Assembly (NCBI RefSeq): GCF_016097415.1
Contig: NZ_JAEHGE010000001.1
Location: 149,001-213,000, forward strand
Reading direction: 5' to 3'
Length of the DNA: 64,000 nt
Origin: a sulfur-oxidizing endosymbiont of Gigantopelta aegis
GTDB taxonomy: Bacteria > Pseudomonadota > Gammaproteobacteria > GRL18
Of this stretch, positions 4,867 through 31,561 are shown one piece after another. Position 1 is the stretch's first letter, and the number at the start of each line of letters is the position of its first letter. The notes beneath the pieces were generated by a model. The model did not search any database. It was not told the origin of the DNA and saw only the letters and a program-made list of their open reading frames with translations. The translations under genes were made by a program, and so were the position numbers.

Positions 4867-5139
4867 TTACCTAACCTTCTTATCTGCAACGTGGCCTCGG
4901 AAGGTTCTGGTAGGAACCATTTCACCTAACTTGTGACCAACCATGTTTTCATTAATTAATACAGGTACATGCTGACGACCGTTGTGCACTGCGATAGTTA
5001 AACCAACCATCTCAGGCATAACCATTGAACGACGTGACCAGGTTTTAACTGGCTTACGATCATTAGTTTCAACTGCCTTAAGCACCTTTTTCATTAAGTG
5101 ACCATCAATAAATGGTCCTTTTTTAATTGAACGTGGCAC
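4867..5139 (-). CDS. rpsS: 30S ribosomal protein S19
   Basis: 90 residues. [19 protein letters not shown] and the signature [19 protein letters not shown] identify S19, which binds 16S rRNA in the small-subunit head with S13. The gene lies 22 bases after rplB and five bases before rplV. Confidence 0.98.
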
Positions 5140-5161
5140 TATTAATACTCCTTAATAACGA

Positions 5162-5989
5162 TTATTTTTTGTTACGACGACGTACAATAAACTTATCAGT
5201 ACGTTTATTACTACGTGTCTTATAACCCTTAGTCGGAGTACCCCATGGAGAAACCGGATGACGGCCTCCAGATGTACGCCCTTCACCACCACCATGCGGG
5301 TGATCAACGGGGTTCATAGCAACACCACGAACTGTTGGACGAATACCTCTCCAACGGGTCGCGCCAGCTTTACCTAGCTTACGTAGACTATGTTCTGAGT
5401 TACTGACTTCACCGATCGTTGCTTTACAATCAACGTGAATTTTACGCATCTCACCGGAGCGTAAACGCACGGTAACATAAGCACCTTCACGCGCAATCAA
5501 TTGAGCTGAAGTACCGGCGCTACGTGCGATTTGTGCACCTTTGCCTGGCTTCATTTCAATACAATGAACGGTTGAGCCCACTGGGATGTCACGCAATTGC
5601 ATGGCATTACCCGGTTTGATATCAGACTCTGCACCAGAATGAATAGGTGTACCTTCAGATACGCCCTTCGGTGCAATAATATAACGACGTTCACCATCAG
5701 CATATAATACTAATGCTAAATGAGCCGTTCTATTGGGATCATATTCCAAGCGTTCTACTTTGCCTGGGATACCATCTTTATTTCTTTTAAAATCAACAAC
5801 ACGATAATGTTGTTTGTGTCCGCCACCAATATGACGCGTAGTAATACGCCCATTATTGTTACGACCACCTGATTTTGACTTCTTAGCGAGCAGCGGTGCA
5901 TGACCTGAGCCTTTATGTAGACCTTCGGTTTGAATGCGAACTACAAAACGACGCCCTGCTGAAGTTGGTTTGCTTTTAATTACAGCCAT
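5162..5989 (-). CDS. rplB: 50S ribosomal protein L2
   Basis: 275 residues (E. coli 273). The C-terminal signature [20 protein letters not shown], including the essential histidine, and the [21 protein letters not shown] region are present. L2 is needed for subunit association and peptidyl transferase activity. Standard S10 operon position after rplW. Confidence 0.99.
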
Positions 5990-6015
5990 TTCTGTTTACC
6001 TCAACTTTAGCCCGG

Positions 6016-6312
6016 CTACTCGCCCGACATCATTTTAATGGTTGAACCTTCTGCTAAGGTGACATACGCTTTTTTCCAGTCTTTACGACGACCAACTCTC
6101 TGGCCAAAACGTTTCACTTTACCCTTAGCAACACTGGTTTGTACATTTGATACTTTCACATCAAATACACTTTCAACTGCTTTTTTAATTTCTGGTTTAT
6201 TGGCATCAATTGCGACCTTGAAAACATATTGATTATTGTTTTCCTGGTTTAATGCCGCTTTTTCAGAGACATGTGGTGCAACTAATACGTTGAAGATACG
6301 TTCCTGATTCAT
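6016..6312 (-). CDS. rplW: 50S ribosomal protein L23
   Basis: 98 residues. It has [20 protein letters not shown] near the N-terminus and the [16 protein letters not shown] signature. L23 lies at the tunnel exit and docks trigger factor and SRP (family knowledge). The start overlaps the rplD stop by the four bases ATGA, so translation is coupled. Confidence 0.98.
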
Positions 6313-6929
6313 TTGAGCATCTCCTCAACTTTCTTGACAGCATCGGCGGTTATGATAATTTTCTCATAACGTACCAAGCTGACCGGATTAATGTGCTGTG
6401 CATCAGTGTACTCGATGTTAATCAAGTTTCTTGATGATAAATAGATATTCTGATCAAAATCTTCAGTCACTATTAATGCATTGCTACAGCCAAGTGCTTT
6501 TAATTGTTCAGCAAGTTCCTTAGTCTTAGGCCCTTCCATTTTCAGTGACTCGATAACAACCAAACGGTCATTACGAACGAGTTCTGAAACAATGGAGACC
6601 ATTGCACTACGGTACATCTTACGATTCACTTTTTGTGAAAAGTCACGATTTGTTGCTGCAAAAGTAGTACCACCACTACGCCAAATTGGGCTACGAATAG
6701 TACCCGAACGAGCACGACCTGTACCCTTCTGACGCCATGGTTTAGCACCACCACCGCTTACTGCAGAGCGATTTTTCTGAGCTTTAGTTCCAGAGCGTCC
6801 ACCAGCTAAATAAGCGGTGACAACCTGATGGATCAGTGCTTCATTGAAATCTTTGTTGAATGTTTCTTCAGATACTTCTACCGTCTTTTTAGAGGCTTTA
6901 CCTGAAGCTGTTGTTAAATTCAGTTCCAT
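6309..6929 (-). CDS. rplD: 50S ribosomal protein L4
   Basis: 206 residues (E. coli 201). The extended tunnel loop [20 protein letters not shown] is visible at about 54-73. In E. coli L4 is also the autogenous repressor of the S10 operon, acting on a leader upstream of rpsJ. Whether that control exists here cannot be judged from the sequence. Confidence 0.98.
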
Positions 6930-9497: not shown

Positions 9498-9681
9498 TTT
9501 CTTTTCCTGACTAAATATTAATTTACACAGACACCTTATACATTCACACTTTCTTACAAAAGTGATCGGGTAAAATCAGAGTCACATTCATTACACAAAT
9601 TGTTTACATTCAAAATAGGTAAGTCCTATCTTAAATGGTCTTGCTCGGTTCCCCTCTATTTAAAGAAGGCAATCTATCCGA

Positions 9682-9756
9682 GGTCGGAGTCAAATCACAT
9701 CCACCCCAGTTAAACATTTGGAGTGCGAAGTTTTTGTAATTTGACTCCGCCCCCCT
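9682..9756. repeat. Inverted repeat, GGTCGGAGTCAAAT family, copy 1
   Basis: GGTCGGAGTCAAAT at 9683 is matched in reverse by ATTTGACTCCGCC near 9739-9751. The same termini occur at 27691-27778 around a different core, so this is a dispersed element with conserved ends. It lies between fusA and tuf and has no coding capacity. Confidence 0.65.
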
Positions 9757-27096: not shown

Positions 27097-27140
27097 CATC
27101 GACCCCAATCTTAGTTTAGTTTAAGCAAACAGTTTGTATC

Positions 27141-27215
<75 letters not shown>

Positions 27216-27280
27216 ATTCATTATTCTTTTACTCTGACTTTTTATAGCGTTATATAACTGTCAGAAAAAAGAGCAATCAA

Positions 27281-27354
<74 letters not shown>

Positions 27355-27484
27355 AAAATCACCTTTAAAACATTATTCCTAGCATTATAATAGGAGATAA
27401 TATTTTAAGGTAAAAAAAAACGCTCTCCTATTATTCGTAATCAATAGTCATTAGCGTTTCTTTTATAAATTCTATAATCTGAAA

Positions 27485-27569
27485 TGGTGGAGGGGGGAGG
27501 ATTCGAACCTCCGAAGGCAGAGCCAGCAGATTTACAGTCTGCCCCCTTTGGCCGCTCGGGAACCCCTCC
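27485..27569 (-). tRNA. tRNA-Tyr (anticodon GTA)
   Basis: An 85-base class II tRNA with acceptor GGAGGGG, anticodon loop CTGTAAA, a long variable arm (GGCTCTGCCTTC region), T-loop TTCGAAT and encoded CCA. It is the first gene of the tRNA-tuf operon. Confidence 0.97.
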
Positions 27570-27588
27570 GTACCTCAGAAAGGACGCT

Positions 27589-27617
27589 ATTATTGGTTAA
27601 ATTCATTTATCTGTCAA
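27589..27617 (-). promoter_or_regulatory. Promoter of the tRNA-Tyr-Gly-Thr-tuf operon
   Basis: TTGACA (27617-27612) and AATAAT (27594-27589) are 17 bases apart on the minus strand. A GCGTCC discriminator follows, as in stringently controlled stable-RNA promoters. The predicted start is about 15 bases before tRNA-Tyr. Confidence 0.85.
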
Positions 27618-27690
27618 GTCAATTAATCAATATTTTATGACTTTTTATTTATTCTGTTTAAATTGTAGTTTTTCGGGTGATTTCTAGCTA

Positions 27691-27778
27691 GGGGTCAGCT
27701 TGGAGTCGAAGTCAAATGGCACAAAGTTCAATGCCTAAATTTATCACCATACGTTTTGCCATTTGACTCCGACCCCTG
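27691..27778. repeat. Inverted repeat, GGTCGGAGTCAAAT family, copy 2
   Basis: GGGGTCAGCTTGGAGTCGAA with GTCAAATGGC is mirrored by GCCATTTGACTCCGACCCC about 40 bases later. The ends match those at 9682-9756. It separates the divergent tRNA operon and sat-cysC gene. Confidence 0.7.
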
Positions 27779-27843
27779 AGTTCAAAGAGAATAGAGTAAA
27801 CTACTCACATCTATCTAATTTATTTCAATTATAGGGACTTTAT

Positions 27844-29553
27844 ATGCCTCACGGTGGTGATCTCGTCAATCTTCTTGTCGCTCCAGAAGAAGCTGACAGC
27901 CTAAAACAACAATCTGAGTTTTTCCCTTCAATCACACTGACAAAACGGCAATTATGTGATTTAGAGATGCTCATTAATGGTGCGATGTCTCCCTTAACAG
28001 GTTATATGGATAAAGAAACCTATGATTCTGTTATTCAAACCTCACGCTTACCTAACAATTTGCTTTGGCCGATGCCTATTGTTTTAGATATCGAAGACAA
28101 GCTAGCGGAAAAGCTGTCTCCCGGTGACAAAGTAGCCCTACGCGATACTGAGGGCTTTATGCCTGCGGTCTTAACAGTGTCCGACATCTGGCAGGCTGAT
28201 AAAAAATTAGAAGCTGATACCATTTATGGTACTCAATCTAATTTACATCCTGGGGTAGACTACTTGTTAAATCAAAGTCACTCCTATTATATCGGAGGAG
28301 AGATTCAGGGCACCGAAACGTTATCCCACTTTGATTTTGAACAGCTTTGGTCATCCCCTGCTGAATTACGAGCCTTATTTAACAAACAAGGCTGGCGAAA
28401 TGTGCTGGCCTTTCAAACCAGTCAGCCTATGCATAAGGTGCATCAACACATCACCCTGAATGCAGCACGTGAAAACAATGCGCATATACTGATTCACCCG
28501 ACTGTTGGTATCACCAAGCCGGGGGATCTCGATTATTATGCTCGGGTGCATTGCTATCAGGCCATACAAAAATATTATCCCACTAACTTAGCGACCATGT
28601 CACTATTGCCACTCGCCATGCGCATGGCCGGCCCCAAAGAAGCACTCTGGCACGCAATCGTTAATAAGAATTATGGTTGCTCTCATATTCTCATCGGCCC
28701 TGAACATGCATCGCCCCCTACTGAGCAATTTTATGCACACTCTGCTGCCCAGCAATATGTGACTGAACATGCTGATGAATTGGGTATTATTCCGGTATGC
28801 CCTGAAGAAACACGCTATGTGGCAGAAAAACAAGCCTTTTTACCACTTTCTAGCATTAAAAAAGATAAGCTTGGCAGTGAAATGCTCTCGGTAGATGAGC
28901 TCAAGAACCATTTACAGAATAACCACCCTATTCCTGAGTGGTTTAGTTATCCTGAAGTGTTAAAAGCACTCAGCCGCGCCTATCCTCCCCTTTGTAAACA
29001 AGGCATCACCTTGTTTTTCACTGGACTGTCCGGATCAGGCAAATCAACCCTAGCAAAAATCATTTATGCCAAATTGATTGAGCTTGGTACTAGACCCGTG
29101 ACCCTATTAGATGGTGATATTGTCAGACATAATTTATCCAGTGAATTAGGTTTTTCTAGAAATGACCGCAATATCAATGTTCGACGCATCAGCTTTGTCG
29201 CCAATGAAATTACCAAAAATGGTGGGGTGGCGATTTGTGCGCCGATTGCGCCTTATACCGAAATGCGCCGCAGTGCCCGTGAATTAATCGAACAATACGG
29301 TGCTTTCATTGAAATCCATGTCGCCACCCCCTTAGAAGTGTGTGAGTCACGGGATCGCAAAGGGCTTTATGCCAAGGCCAGAAAGGGCATTATTCCTGAA
29401 TTTACCGGCATTAGTGATCCCTATGAGCAACCGGAAACCCCTGAAATGCGCATTGATACTAGCCAATTTTCACCCATGGAAGCAGCTCAGGCAATTTACC
29501 TCTATTTATTTAGAGAGGGCTATATAGAAACGGCTGAAAACTGCGGTCAATAG
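27844..29553 (+). CDS. Bifunctional ATP sulfurylase/APS kinase, atypical sulfurylase site
   Basis: 569 residues. Residues about 1-385 match the PUA-like plus catalytic ATP sulfurylase fold (HPTVGITKPGDLDYYARV; MRMAGPKEALWHAI). Residues about 390-569 are a complete APS kinase with P-loop GLSGSGKST, LDGDIVRHNLS and DRKGLYAKARKG. Together these make APS and then PAPS. The sulfurylase motif usually written QxRNPxHxxH reads QTSQPMHKVH here, and the usual GRDHAG reads GPEHAS. HxxH is kept but R, N, R and D are lost, so the first activity may be altered. The gene stands 27 bases before a DHH phosphoesterase, probably one operon. Confidence 0.9.
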   Translation: MPHGGDLVNLLVAPEEADSLKQQSEFFPSITLTKRQLCDLEMLINGAMSPLTGYMDKETYDSVIQTSRLPNNLLWPMPIVLDIEDKLAEKLSPGDKVALRDTEGFMPAVLTVSDIWQADKKLEADTIYGTQSNLHPGVDYLLNQSHSYYIGGEIQGTETLSHFDFEQLWSSPAELRALFNKQGWRNVLAFQTSQPMHKVHQHITLNAARENNAHILIHPTVGITKPGDLDYYARVHCYQAIQKYYPTNLATMSLLPLAMRMAGPKEALWHAIVNKNYGCSHILIGPEHASPPTEQFYAHSAAQQYVTEHADELGIIPVCPEETRYVAEKQAFLPLSSIKKDKLGSEMLSVDELKNHLQNNHPIPEWFSYPEVLKALSRAYPPLCKQGITLFFTGLSGSGKSTLAKIIYAKLIELGTRPVTLLDGDIVRHNLSSELGFSRNDRNINVRRISFVANEITKNGGVAICAPIAPYTEMRRSARELIEQYGAFIEIHVATPLEVCESRDRKGLYAKARKGIIPEFTGISDPYEQPETPEMRIDTSQFSPMEAAQAIYLYLFREGYIETAENCGQ

Positions 29554-29580
29554 GTAAAAAGACAGGTAAAAAGGACAACC

Positions 29581-30564
29581 ATGCAAACATTTGATGTTTT
29601 TAACGGCGATGCCGATGGCATTTGCTCATTATTACAATTACGCCAGGCAATGCCCTGCCAATCTCAGCTGATCACCGGGATCAAGCGGGATATTAATTTA
29701 TTAAAAAAAGTATCGGCTCAAACAGGTGATCAGGTTAATGTACTGGATGTTTCACTGGATAAAAACCGTATCGAGTTAGTGAGCCTGCTGGCCCAAGGCG
29801 TTGACGTATTATATATCGACCACCACTTTTGTGGTGAACTTCCAGAAAGTGAGCATTTGAGCCCAGTCATTGATACCCAGCCAAACACTTGCACCAGCTT
29901 ATTGATGTATCAATATCTTAAAAAAGAACTCACTCAACAGATAAGTCCTTTATGGGCAATTACCGGCACTTTTGGTGACAACTTAAATCAATCAGCATTC
30001 ACTTTAGCCTCAGAAACAGCTCTTAAAGACTCAGAAATAGCACGATTAAAATCACTGGGCATTTACATCAATTATAATGGCTATGGTGCTAGTGTGTCAG
30101 ACCTGCATTTCGCACCAGATGAACTATTCAAATTATTATTACCCTATCACAAGCCTTTAGATTTTATTAATGATAGCAGCTCAGTCTACGCTTCATTAAA
30201 ATCAGGCTACGATGAAGATAATGCTCATGTTCAAGACATAAAAGCGGAATTTGAAACCGATAAAACAGCCCTATTCATCTTACCCAATGCCGCTTGGGCA
30301 CGCCGAATCAGTGGCGTTTATAGTAATGAATTGGTCAATCAATACCCTGATCGCGCCCATGCGGTATTGACAGAAAACGATCAGGATGGGTATTTAATCA
30401 GTGTTCGAGCACCATTGAACAACAAAACCGGCGCCGATGACTTGTGCCGTCAATTTGAATCCGGTGGAGGTAGAAAAGCTGCGGCAGGCATTAATCATTT
30501 ACCTAAAGCTGATCTAGAGCGATTTATGGAGCGCTTTTCCGTACAGTTTGTTTCCAAAACGTAG
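29581..30564 (+). CDS. DHH-family phosphoesterase
   Basis: 327 residues. The metal-binding motifs are FNGDADGICS (about 7-16) and YIDHHF (about 79-84), with ITGTFGDN downstream. The C-terminal DHHA1 domain ends in SGGGRKAAAG, where the usual GGGH histidine is arginine. Related proteins hydrolyse short nucleotides, including pAp/PAP and cyclic dinucleotides. Directly after a PAPS-forming enzyme, a role in removing 3'-phosphoadenosine 5'-phosphate is a reasonable inference but not shown. The stop codon lies in a palindromic repeat shared with kdsD. Confidence 0.85.
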   Translation: MQTFDVFNGDADGICSLLQLRQAMPCQSQLITGIKRDINLLKKVSAQTGDQVNVLDVSLDKNRIELVSLLAQGVDVLYIDHHFCGELPESEHLSPVIDTQPNTCTSLLMYQYLKKELTQQISPLWAITGTFGDNLNQSAFTLASETALKDSEIARLKSLGIYINYNGYGASVSDLHFAPDELFKLLLPYHKPLDFINDSSSVYASLKSGYDEDNAHVQDIKAEFETDKTALFILPNAAWARRISGVYSNELVNQYPDRAHAVLTENDQDGYLISVRAPLNNKTGADDLCRQFESGGGRKAAAGINHLPKADLERFMERFSVQFVSKT

Positions 30565-30597
30565 GGTGGGCAGATAAGGCCATGCCCAGCCTACGTT
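30558..30597. repeat. Palindrome spanning both convergent stop codons
   Basis: AACGTAGGGTGGGCA at 30558-30572 is mirrored by TGCCCAGCCTACGTT at 30583-30597 (one mismatch). The TAG of the DHH gene (30562-30564) lies in the left arm. The TAA of kdsD (30596-30598) overlaps the right arm. It may act as a bidirectional 3' structure. Confidence 0.8.
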
Positions 30598-31561
30598 AGC
30601 AATCGAATATTTCCAGGATACCGGTAATATGGTTATCATTATCAGTCACGATGAGTGCTTTGATCTTTTTCTTCAGCATTAATGACTCTGCATCGACTAG
30701 CATCATGTCATCATTAATAGTGATCGGATTTTTAGTCATGATCTCCCCAATACTGGCTTGGTTCATATCCACTTTATTCACTAGCGCACGGCGTAAATCA
30801 CCATCCGTGACGATACCAATGACTTTTTGATCATCGACAATCACCACCAAGCCCAAGCGTCCTTCACTAATAGCCAAAACCGACTCACCTAGCGATGTCT
30901 CTTGACTCACTAATGGTAGATTATTGCTATGCATCACATTGCTCACTTTCGTCAGCAAACGTCGTCCTAAACTGCCACCGGGGTGATAGCGGGCAAAATC
31001 TTCAGCCTGAAAATTACGCGCCTTAATCAAAGCAACCGCCAGTGCATCGCCCATGCCCATCGTTGCCAGCGTCGATGTGGTGGGGGCTAAATTATTGGGG
31101 CAGACTTCACGCTCAACCTTGACACTCAAAATTACATCAGAATGCTGTGCCATGGTCGATTCTACATTGCCGACAATAGAAATAATTTCATTGCCAAAAT
31201 GCTTCACCGAGGGTAATAAGTTAATAATTTCTTCTGTTTCACCGCTATAAGAAATCAAAACTAAGAGGTCGTCACGGGTTAACATTCCCAAATCACCATG
31301 AAAAGCTTCTGCTGGGTGCATAAAAAAGCTCGGGGTGCCTGTAGAGGCAAAAGTGGCCATCATTTTCTTTCCGACCAAACCGGACTTGCCCATACCGCAA
31401 ACAACGACTCGTCCCTTCGTTTGCAAAATCATCGTCACCGCTTTAAAAAACTCATCACCCAAGCCCGCTGACATATTAATTAATGCCTTAGCCTGCTCAG
31501 TTAAAGATTCTTTGGCGATCTGTAGCATTGCTGATTGCTTGTCACTGTTCACATCGCTCAT
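30596..31561 (-). CDS. kdsD: Arabinose-5-phosphate isomerase (KdsD/KpsF family)
   Basis: 321 residues (E. coli KdsD 328). An N-terminal SIS domain (GKSGLVGKKMMATFASTGTP, about 58-77; ISYSGETEEI) is followed by two CBS motifs. It interconverts ribulose-5-phosphate and arabinose-5-phosphate, the first step to KDO for lipopolysaccharide. The C-terminus ends ITGILEIFDC, a few residues short of the usual HxHDLL-type ending, and the stop lies at a palindromic repeat that may have replaced the native end. The start is three bases after the kdsB stop, so coupling is likely. Confidence 0.93.
   Translation of the reverse strand: MSDVNSDKQSAMLQIAKESLTEQAKALINMSAGLGDEFFKAVTMILQTKGRVVVCGMGKSGLVGKKMMATFASTGTPSFFMHPAEAFHGDLGMLTRDDLLVLISYSGETEEIINLLPSVKHFGNEIISIVGNVESTMAQHSDVILSVKVEREVCPNNLAPTTSTLATMGMGDALAVALIKARNFQAEDFARYHPGGSLGRRLLTKVSNVMHSNNLPLVSQETSLGESVLAISEGRLGLVVIVDDQKVIGIVTDGDLRRALVNKVDMNQASIGEIMTKNPITINDDMMLVDAESLMLKKKIKALIVTDNDNHITGILEIFDC

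Follow-up and report, generated by a model that had tools for sequence, protein, structure and literature searches.

The gene at positions 27844-29553 (+ strand) of the 64,000-nucleotide stretch of DNA analysed here, in the following called the window, very probably encodes an APS kinase whose Sat-like domain is dead and of structural or regulatory use, an enzyme fed with APS from elsewhere and making PAPS for sulfation, as judged by sequence comparison. The open reading frame begins with ATG, has zero internal stops and covers a full-length Sat-APS kinase fusion of 569 aa. It scores 778.8 bits against PRK05537.1, the model of the bifunctional Sat/APS kinase family (cut-off 669), and the Pfam domains found in it are PUA_2, ATP-sulfurylase and APS_kinase. 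In detail, these are a PUA-like N-terminal domain (aa 2-157, 27847-28314, +, PF14306), a Sat-like catalytic domain whose residues suggest that it is dead for APS formation (aa 167-378, 28342-28977, +, PF01747) and an APS kinase domain (aa 386-538, 28999-29457, +, PF01583). The AlphaFold2 model of the fusion has a mean pLDDT of 91.3. In the alignment the kinase P-loop GLSGSGKST (aa 394-402) and the DGD motif (aa 423-425) are intact, and the sequence-only reading of this DNA had correctly described both as normal.

That reading had also reported two altered motifs in the Sat-like domain, and both are present as written. According to the alignment, QTSQPMHKVH (aa 191-200, 28414-28443, +) stands where QTRNPxHxxH is expected, and GPEHAS (aa 285-290, 28696-28713, +) where GRDHAG is expected. 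Compared to 1i2d of P. chrysogenum, to which the alignment is gap-free here, R199 is replaced by S193, N200 by Q194, R292 by P286, D293 by E287 and G296 by S290. Thus, the key Arg, Asn and Asp residues are indeed gone and the histidines kept, as had been claimed. Retained are Q191, T192, P195, H197, H200, H288, A289 and the GxxKxxD mobile loop (GITKPGD, aa 222-228, 28507-28527, +; role from the available part of PMC3779200). The earlier observation was right and slightly understated. A third altered catalytic loop had been missed: SVDELK (aa 349-354, 28888-28905, +) stands where the alignment has SGTxxR, its final change from R to K being mild. Regarding the features of a functional ATP sulfurylase, HxxH is found (H197, H200), whereas QxRN (here QTSQ), GRD (GPE) and SGTxxR (SVDELK) are not. 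No register shift that would restore the lost residues shows in the sequence, as neither of the first two motifs contains a gap when aligned to 1i2d, 2gks or 1g8f.

The roles of these residues are described in the available portions of two studies. In the Sat of A. vinosum, Gln199, Arg201 and Ala299 bond the sulfate of APS and Thr200, Arg201 and Asn202 the α-phosphate, the pyrophosphate site consists of Asn202, His205, His208 and Arg365, with the Arg of SGTxxR as an invariant residue of this site, and the ribose is contacted by Gly295, Arg296 (main chain) and His298 (PMC3779200). In human PAPSS1, docking places the sulfate between R421 and R522 (PMC11697783). From these roles it follows that the window protein is without both sulfate-site arginines and part of the pyrophosphate site. 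Judging from the aligned positions, it retains the ribose contacts (G285, H288) and both HxxH histidines. Because both sulfate arginines, the Asn and the Asp are replaced in the alignment and the SGTxxR loop of the pyrophosphate site is altered, the Sat-like domain would be unable to make APS. Because H197/H200, Gln191, Thr192, GxxKxxD, His288 and Ala289 are retained, weak or altered nucleotide binding would be possible.

To describe the distribution of the replacements, an alignment of 65 counted rows was used, consisting of relatives, the window protein, 3cr8 and 1i2d; ORFs shorter than 400 aa and duplicate sequences were omitted, and the window's own copy (L001) was not counted. The rows comprise 20 canonical fusions (19 bacterial rows and 1i2d), nine standalone Sats and 36 replaced fusions. 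All 20 canonical fusions and all nine standalone Sats have Arg at position 193, Asn at 194, Arg at 286 and both the Gly and the Arg of SGTxxR, compared to 1, 2, 0, 2 and 14 of the 36 replaced fusions, respectively. The Asp of GRD is intact in 18/19 canonical bacterial rows. The R and N of QxRN, the R of GRD and the G of SGTxxR tell intact from replaced fusions. Within the family of the window protein, S193, P195, H197, P286, H288 and A289 are identical in 15/15 sequences compared, and since the key replacements are invariant in these 15 sequences, chance or sequencing error behind them can be ruled out.

The sequence-only reading had proposed a family tree to see whether the replacements define a clade, and they do. 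In a 64-row tree including eight standalone Sats, the window protein falls within a 29-row clade of replaced fusions with a support of 100/100, consisting of Gammaproteobacteria and one Desulfobulbaceae genome. The tree of the kinase domain alone returns the same 29-row clade (100/98). The other replaced rows (3cr8, L086 and L020; L083 with L071; L080 with L069) lie elsewhere in the tree or are joined weakly, and with the motif columns removed the minimum number of state changes is four. On these reduced columns, a single origin of all 36 replaced rows, forced together, is weakly rejected (p-AU 0.036), in a test whose group was partly picked after the tree was seen and contains the long branches L086, 3cr8 and L020. 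The trees thus suggest, not firmly, that the loss of Sat residues probably happened more than once. Among openly licensed literature, mostly titles and the starts of abstracts, we recognised no description of recurrent loss in bacterial Sat-APSK fusions. On the Desulfobulbaceae contig, two replaced fusion copies lie face to face (L049, 312-2030, +, and 2811-4595, -), beside a group II intron reverse transcriptase (5073-6485, +).

Selection was assessed domain by domain. Among 15 sequences of the window's family, the median dN/dS was 0.111 for the PUA, 0.086 for the Sat and 0.028 for the kinase domain, figures which derive from 41, 30 and 34 of 105 pairs with dS below 2; the median dS of 1.2-1.4 is near saturation. 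For the 19 canonical rows (171 pairs), the ratio of Sat to kinase protein distances, computed without rows L015, L048, L077, L086 and L049b, was 1.07, compared to 3.28 for the main replaced clade (25 rows, 284 pairs) and 2.78 for the window's family (95 pairs); with one row per subclade it was 1.08 for canonical versus 3.35 for replaced fusions. Given a Sat dN/dS of 0.086 and a distance ratio of 3.28 against 1.07, the catalytic constraint has been relaxed and the fold kept. Altogether the constraint on the Sat-like domain is relaxed but real, and purifying selection persists. Invariant in the 15 family sequences are Q191-S193, P195-H197, V199, T224-L229, Y231-V235, I284-P286 and H288-P291; outside this family the pocket residues are variable in the alignment. 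A changed substrate, which the sequence-only reading had considered, found no supporting evidence: measured against its kinase, the Sat-like domain drifts at about three times the pace seen in canonical fusions.

Half-dead Sat-APSK proteins are already known from T. denitrificans and Entamoeba; what is distinct here is the residue set and the evolutionary context, together with an interesting neighbour. Among solved structures, the nearest relative that shares the architecture and likewise has an altered site is 3cr8 of T. denitrificans, reportedly a two-domain hexameric APS kinase without ATP sulfurylase activity, going by the title of Gay, Segel and Fisher 2009 and by text citing it. Both features of this kind of kinase are seen in the window protein, namely loss of the Sat-like residues N-terminal to APSK and an intact kinase P-loop and DGD. 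The two proteins share the PUA-Sat-APSK architecture and are 47% identical over aligned columns. However, different residues are changed in 3cr8: the first-loop Arg is retained but the Thr and the second His are gone (QARQPMHRAQ), and GGEHQP takes the place of the GPEHAS of the window protein. In the trees 3cr8 groups apart. Its Sat-like domain has been proposed to stabilise the hexamer, according to the available part of PMC13213808. The same portion of that paper describes the APS kinase of Entamoeba histolytica, which resembles the window protein by description in that a catalytically dead Sat-like domain is N-terminal to an APS kinase, which in Entamoeba is a working one. The Entamoeba protein is reported to be dimeric, its Sat-like domain to be without the substrate-binding loop and its pocket to have lost substrate binding. 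The presence of this dead domain makes the kinase more active, and the protein aggregates when the domain is taken away (PMC13213808).

In the case of the canonical bacterial fusions (PRK05537, e.g. Aquifex 2gks), the fusion is the same and the 19 rows are 43-56% identical to the window protein, but all 19 rows keep R193, N194 and R286 as well as both the G and the R of SGTxxR. The fungal ATP sulfurylase 1i2d has the same domain order and 45% identity, with the situation reversed: the Sat motifs are intact and the kinase-like domain is altered (TGYMNSGKDA, LLLGD). This fungal kinase-like domain is described as regulatory in the available part of PMC2275785.

We then turned to the sulfur genes of the window's genome (4.91 Mb, 99.91% complete, 1.79% contamination). 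It encodes a separate canonical Sat with QTRNPMHLAH and GRDHAG, and a CysQ over the cut-off. A standalone CysC is present, so the fusion is not the sole APS kinase of the genome. Sulfotransfer_3 matches at four places, two of them with equal score and perhaps copies, and Sulfotransfer_1 is over the cut-off at three. PF01507 (CysD/CysH type) has no match in this genome, with 14/14 control genomes positive, and for CysN none of six weak matches is over the cut-off. The search for another Sat or CysDN, proposed earlier, was therefore successful for Sat and returned neither PF01507 nor CysN over the cut-off. Upstream of the canonical standalone Sat lie an IS66-type transposase fragment and a lipoamide-dehydrogenase-like gene (L103, 6914-7867 and 7871-9082). 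The genome also has aprA at three loci with interrupted frames (G000:C1 2461118-2462973, 2482890-2484748 and 2550836-2552689; L104-L106), which may reflect gene decay, recoding or assembly error.

Similar searches were carried out in 56 genomes. Three of them (G002, G089 and G091) were dropped as their protein was in pieces or the motif unclassed, which left 53 genomes classed and represented by a protein on the tree. A second Sat was found in 29/34 replaced-type genomes (partial matches in G015 and G063 included) versus 1/19 canonical ones, so that the fusion is the only Sat found in 18/19 canonical genomes. AprA above 200 bits was found in 26/34 versus 0/19, a limit chosen by eye under which G009, G012 and G060 count with partial matches; when the cut-off of the family itself is applied, the numbers are 23/34 versus 0/19. 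Fisher tests, which treat relatives as independent, give p values of 8.6e-9 for the second Sat and 2.4e-8 for AprA. The association is clustered by ancestry, with two independent pairs on starred branches and four on all branches, none of them against the trend and too few for significance in a phylogenetically corrected test. A second Sat was not found in five replaced-type genomes (G017, G023, G073, G078 and G092), nor AprA over 200 bits in 8/34; perhaps these assemblies are incomplete.

The neighbour of the fusion, 27 nt downstream (29581-30564, +), encodes a DHH-DHHA1 phosphoesterase that is probably a PAP phosphatase, an assignment based on Pfam, motifs, the predicted fold and the neighbourhood. 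According to Pfam and the model (pLDDT 91.2), the product has the DHH-DHHA1 fold and no further domains. The best Foldseek match of the model is MtPAPP 8a8k (E 1.9e-14, TM 0.74/0.76), a Mn-stimulated PAP phosphatase of Methanothermococcus according to the available part of PMC10322725. Superposition on 8a8k gives a Z of 26.5 and an rmsd of 3.2 over 297 residues; RecJ-like structures tie at 25.9, and the NrnA type is at about 16-18. A profile search found no sequence link to the solved PAP phosphatases (8a8k), and in NCBIfam the protein matches RecJ alone, and weakly (29.6 bits against a cut-off of 396.9). Invariant in 16 rows are D10, D12, D56, D80-H81-H82, D133, R276 and G295-R298. The metal ligands of motifs I-IV and the basic residue after GGG (GGGR) are present, the residues named in the papers being paired by motif and not by superposition. 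Under this pairing, the Pyrococcus enzyme depends on the Arg, the Gly and the Lys in the matching motifs, as stated in the accessible text of PMC8268124. MtPAPP and this Pyrococcus pApase are likewise DHH-DHHA1 proteins of about 320 aa with conserved metal motifs, and the archaeal genes for such phosphatases lie near sulfate-activation genes (PMC10322725, PMC8268124, both in the parts available). Unlike them, the neighbour is bacterial and without detectable sequence similarity to 8a8k.

In the window's family, the DHH gene follows the fusion in 15/16 loci with at least 900 nt downstream (the window and 14/15 others; the exception is L078), and in L054 it precedes it. In two more distant relatives, L048 and L084, it was not found downstream of the fusion. 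Of the 369 genomes of the class that were searched, 71 contain a homologue at E <=1e-20. Outside the window's family lie 27 of the 30 DHH loci examined. In seven of these 27 sampled loci, a gene for sulfate activation is no more than about 1.5 kb away, namely CysC in L123, L130, L136 and L146 (L130 and L136 are from one genus), Sat in L128, a canonical fusion in L125 and a replaced one in L139. In Gammaproteobacteria the DHH gene is thus met repeatedly next to genes for Sat or APS kinase. With G007 counted, the chance of 7/28 is P 1.5e-8, assuming five such genes in 3 Mb and ignoring relatedness. G007, from the window's genus, has the DHH gene without a sulfate-activation neighbour and without a fusion; therefore the role of the DHH protein is not confined to a fusion partner. 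In the openly licensed literature, mostly titles and abstract starts, no description of a bacterial MtPAPP-like DHH partner of APS kinase was recognised. The neighbour is a candidate for a bacterial PAP phosphatase family.

Other loci showed further arrangements. The replaced fusion of L139 (1-1356, -; TSRPMHRMH, GPHHASP) comes from another gammaproteobacterial family and again adjoins a DHH gene. CysQ lies directly downstream of a replaced fusion in L053 (7717-8490), L055 (5712-6485), L056 (7717-8490) and L057 (3256-4029), in records named Acidiferrobacteraceae, Arenicellales or Gammaproteobacteria. In L053 this standard PAP phosphatase was called by model (300.9 bits, cut-off 228.8), and in the other three by similarity to the L053 gene. 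CysQ is found close to the canonical fusions L050 and L058 as well, so that having a PAP phosphatase gene nearby does not set dead fusions apart. The neighbours of other replaced loci (30 ORFs scanned) are otherwise mixed, with TPR proteins, sugar-nucleotide enzymes, AAA/ParA-type proteins and others; among the matches listed for these 30 ORFs, which for the TPR proteins are the best 25 families, there was no sulfotransferase.

Taken together, residue loss, clade, selection and gene content point to the following sequence of steps, in which enzyme activities, flux, regulation and the lifestyle of the organism are our reading of these data. The fusion would phosphorylate APS, supplied by the separate canonical Sat or by AprBA run from sulfite, to PAPS. 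As no CysH/CysD-type gene was found, the PAPS would go to sulfotransferases and not to PAPS reduction. The downstream DHH-DHHA1 protein would probably convert the resulting PAP to AMP and phosphate, and PAP may be cleared by this protein and CysQ together. The Sat-like domain would persist as a scaffold in the assembly or regulation of the kinase, by analogy to T. denitrificans and Entamoeba. A regulatory role, which the sequence-only reading had also suggested, is plausible on this analogy.

Several other explanations of the Sat-like domain have to be weighed against this one. That it still works as an ATP sulfurylase, other positions having taken over the catalytic roles, could be argued from the score above the PRK05537 cut-off, from the retained HxxH histidines, Gln191, Thr192, GxxKxxD and ribose-contacting His288, and from the Lys in place of Arg in the third loop. 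We consider this very improbable, as three catalytic loops are altered in a domain that diverges about threefold faster relative to its kinase than canonical ones, with no register shift in the first two motifs; moreover 3cr8, in which even the first-loop Arg is retained, was published as lacking the activity, according to its title. A functionless, decaying relic, retained only through its fusion to the kinase, would account for the faster divergence, for altered sites in several lineages and for interrupted frames in a few relatives (L016, L048, L022/L079). However, both N-terminal domains are under purifying selection according to their dN/dS (0.086 and 0.111), albeit with dS near saturation, and every domain folds at high confidence in the AlphaFold2 model, which makes a relic quite improbable.

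The APS kinase with a dead Sat-like domain, as preferred here, also has a variant: a pocket remodelled to sense a nucleotide (APS, PAPS, PAP or ATP) would control the kinase allosterically, a mirror image of the fungal Sat. The remodelled loops are themselves invariant in the 15 family sequences, G285, H288 and the mobile loop are kept, and the Entamoeba and fungal proteins (PMC13213808, PMC2275785, available parts) offer examples of regulation by a dead or altered partner domain. Yet since the Entamoeba pocket is reported to be without substrate binding (PMC13213808, in the part available), regulation need not involve a ligand, and the variability of the pocket outside the window's family also speaks against a sensor, which we regard as possible but rather doubtful. 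More speculative still, and unlikely as a whole, would be a general scheme for gammaproteobacterial sulfur oxidisers. Here, fusions would repeatedly have lost the sulfurylase once APS came from dissimilatory Sat/Apr, and the conserved remodelled pocket would be a nucleotide sensor tuning PAPS output. The fusion and the DHH gene would act as a two-gene unit, the latter standing for a bacterial family of PAP phosphatases unrecognised in the literature searched, and the control would mirror that of fungal Sat.

The loss of one activity beside a second source of APS offers a testable explanation for the death of one half of a fusion and the survival of the other. Because PRK05537 carries the name 'bifunctional sulfate adenylyltransferase/adenylylsulfate kinase', genomes of the replaced type are annotated as having an enzyme for sulfate activation, which this gene probably does not provide.

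Regarding the surroundings of the fusion, a promoter and terminator scan of 27100-30700 gave signals near chance, and a plasmid search returned 16 records, every one below 60% identity. Two pairs of 19-base inverted repeats similar to GCCATTTGACTCCGACCCC, with at most three mismatches and about 75 bases end to end, lie at 27702-27776 and 9680-9754. Such repeats gave four matches versus zero in shuffles, and they may be the ends of short mobile elements.
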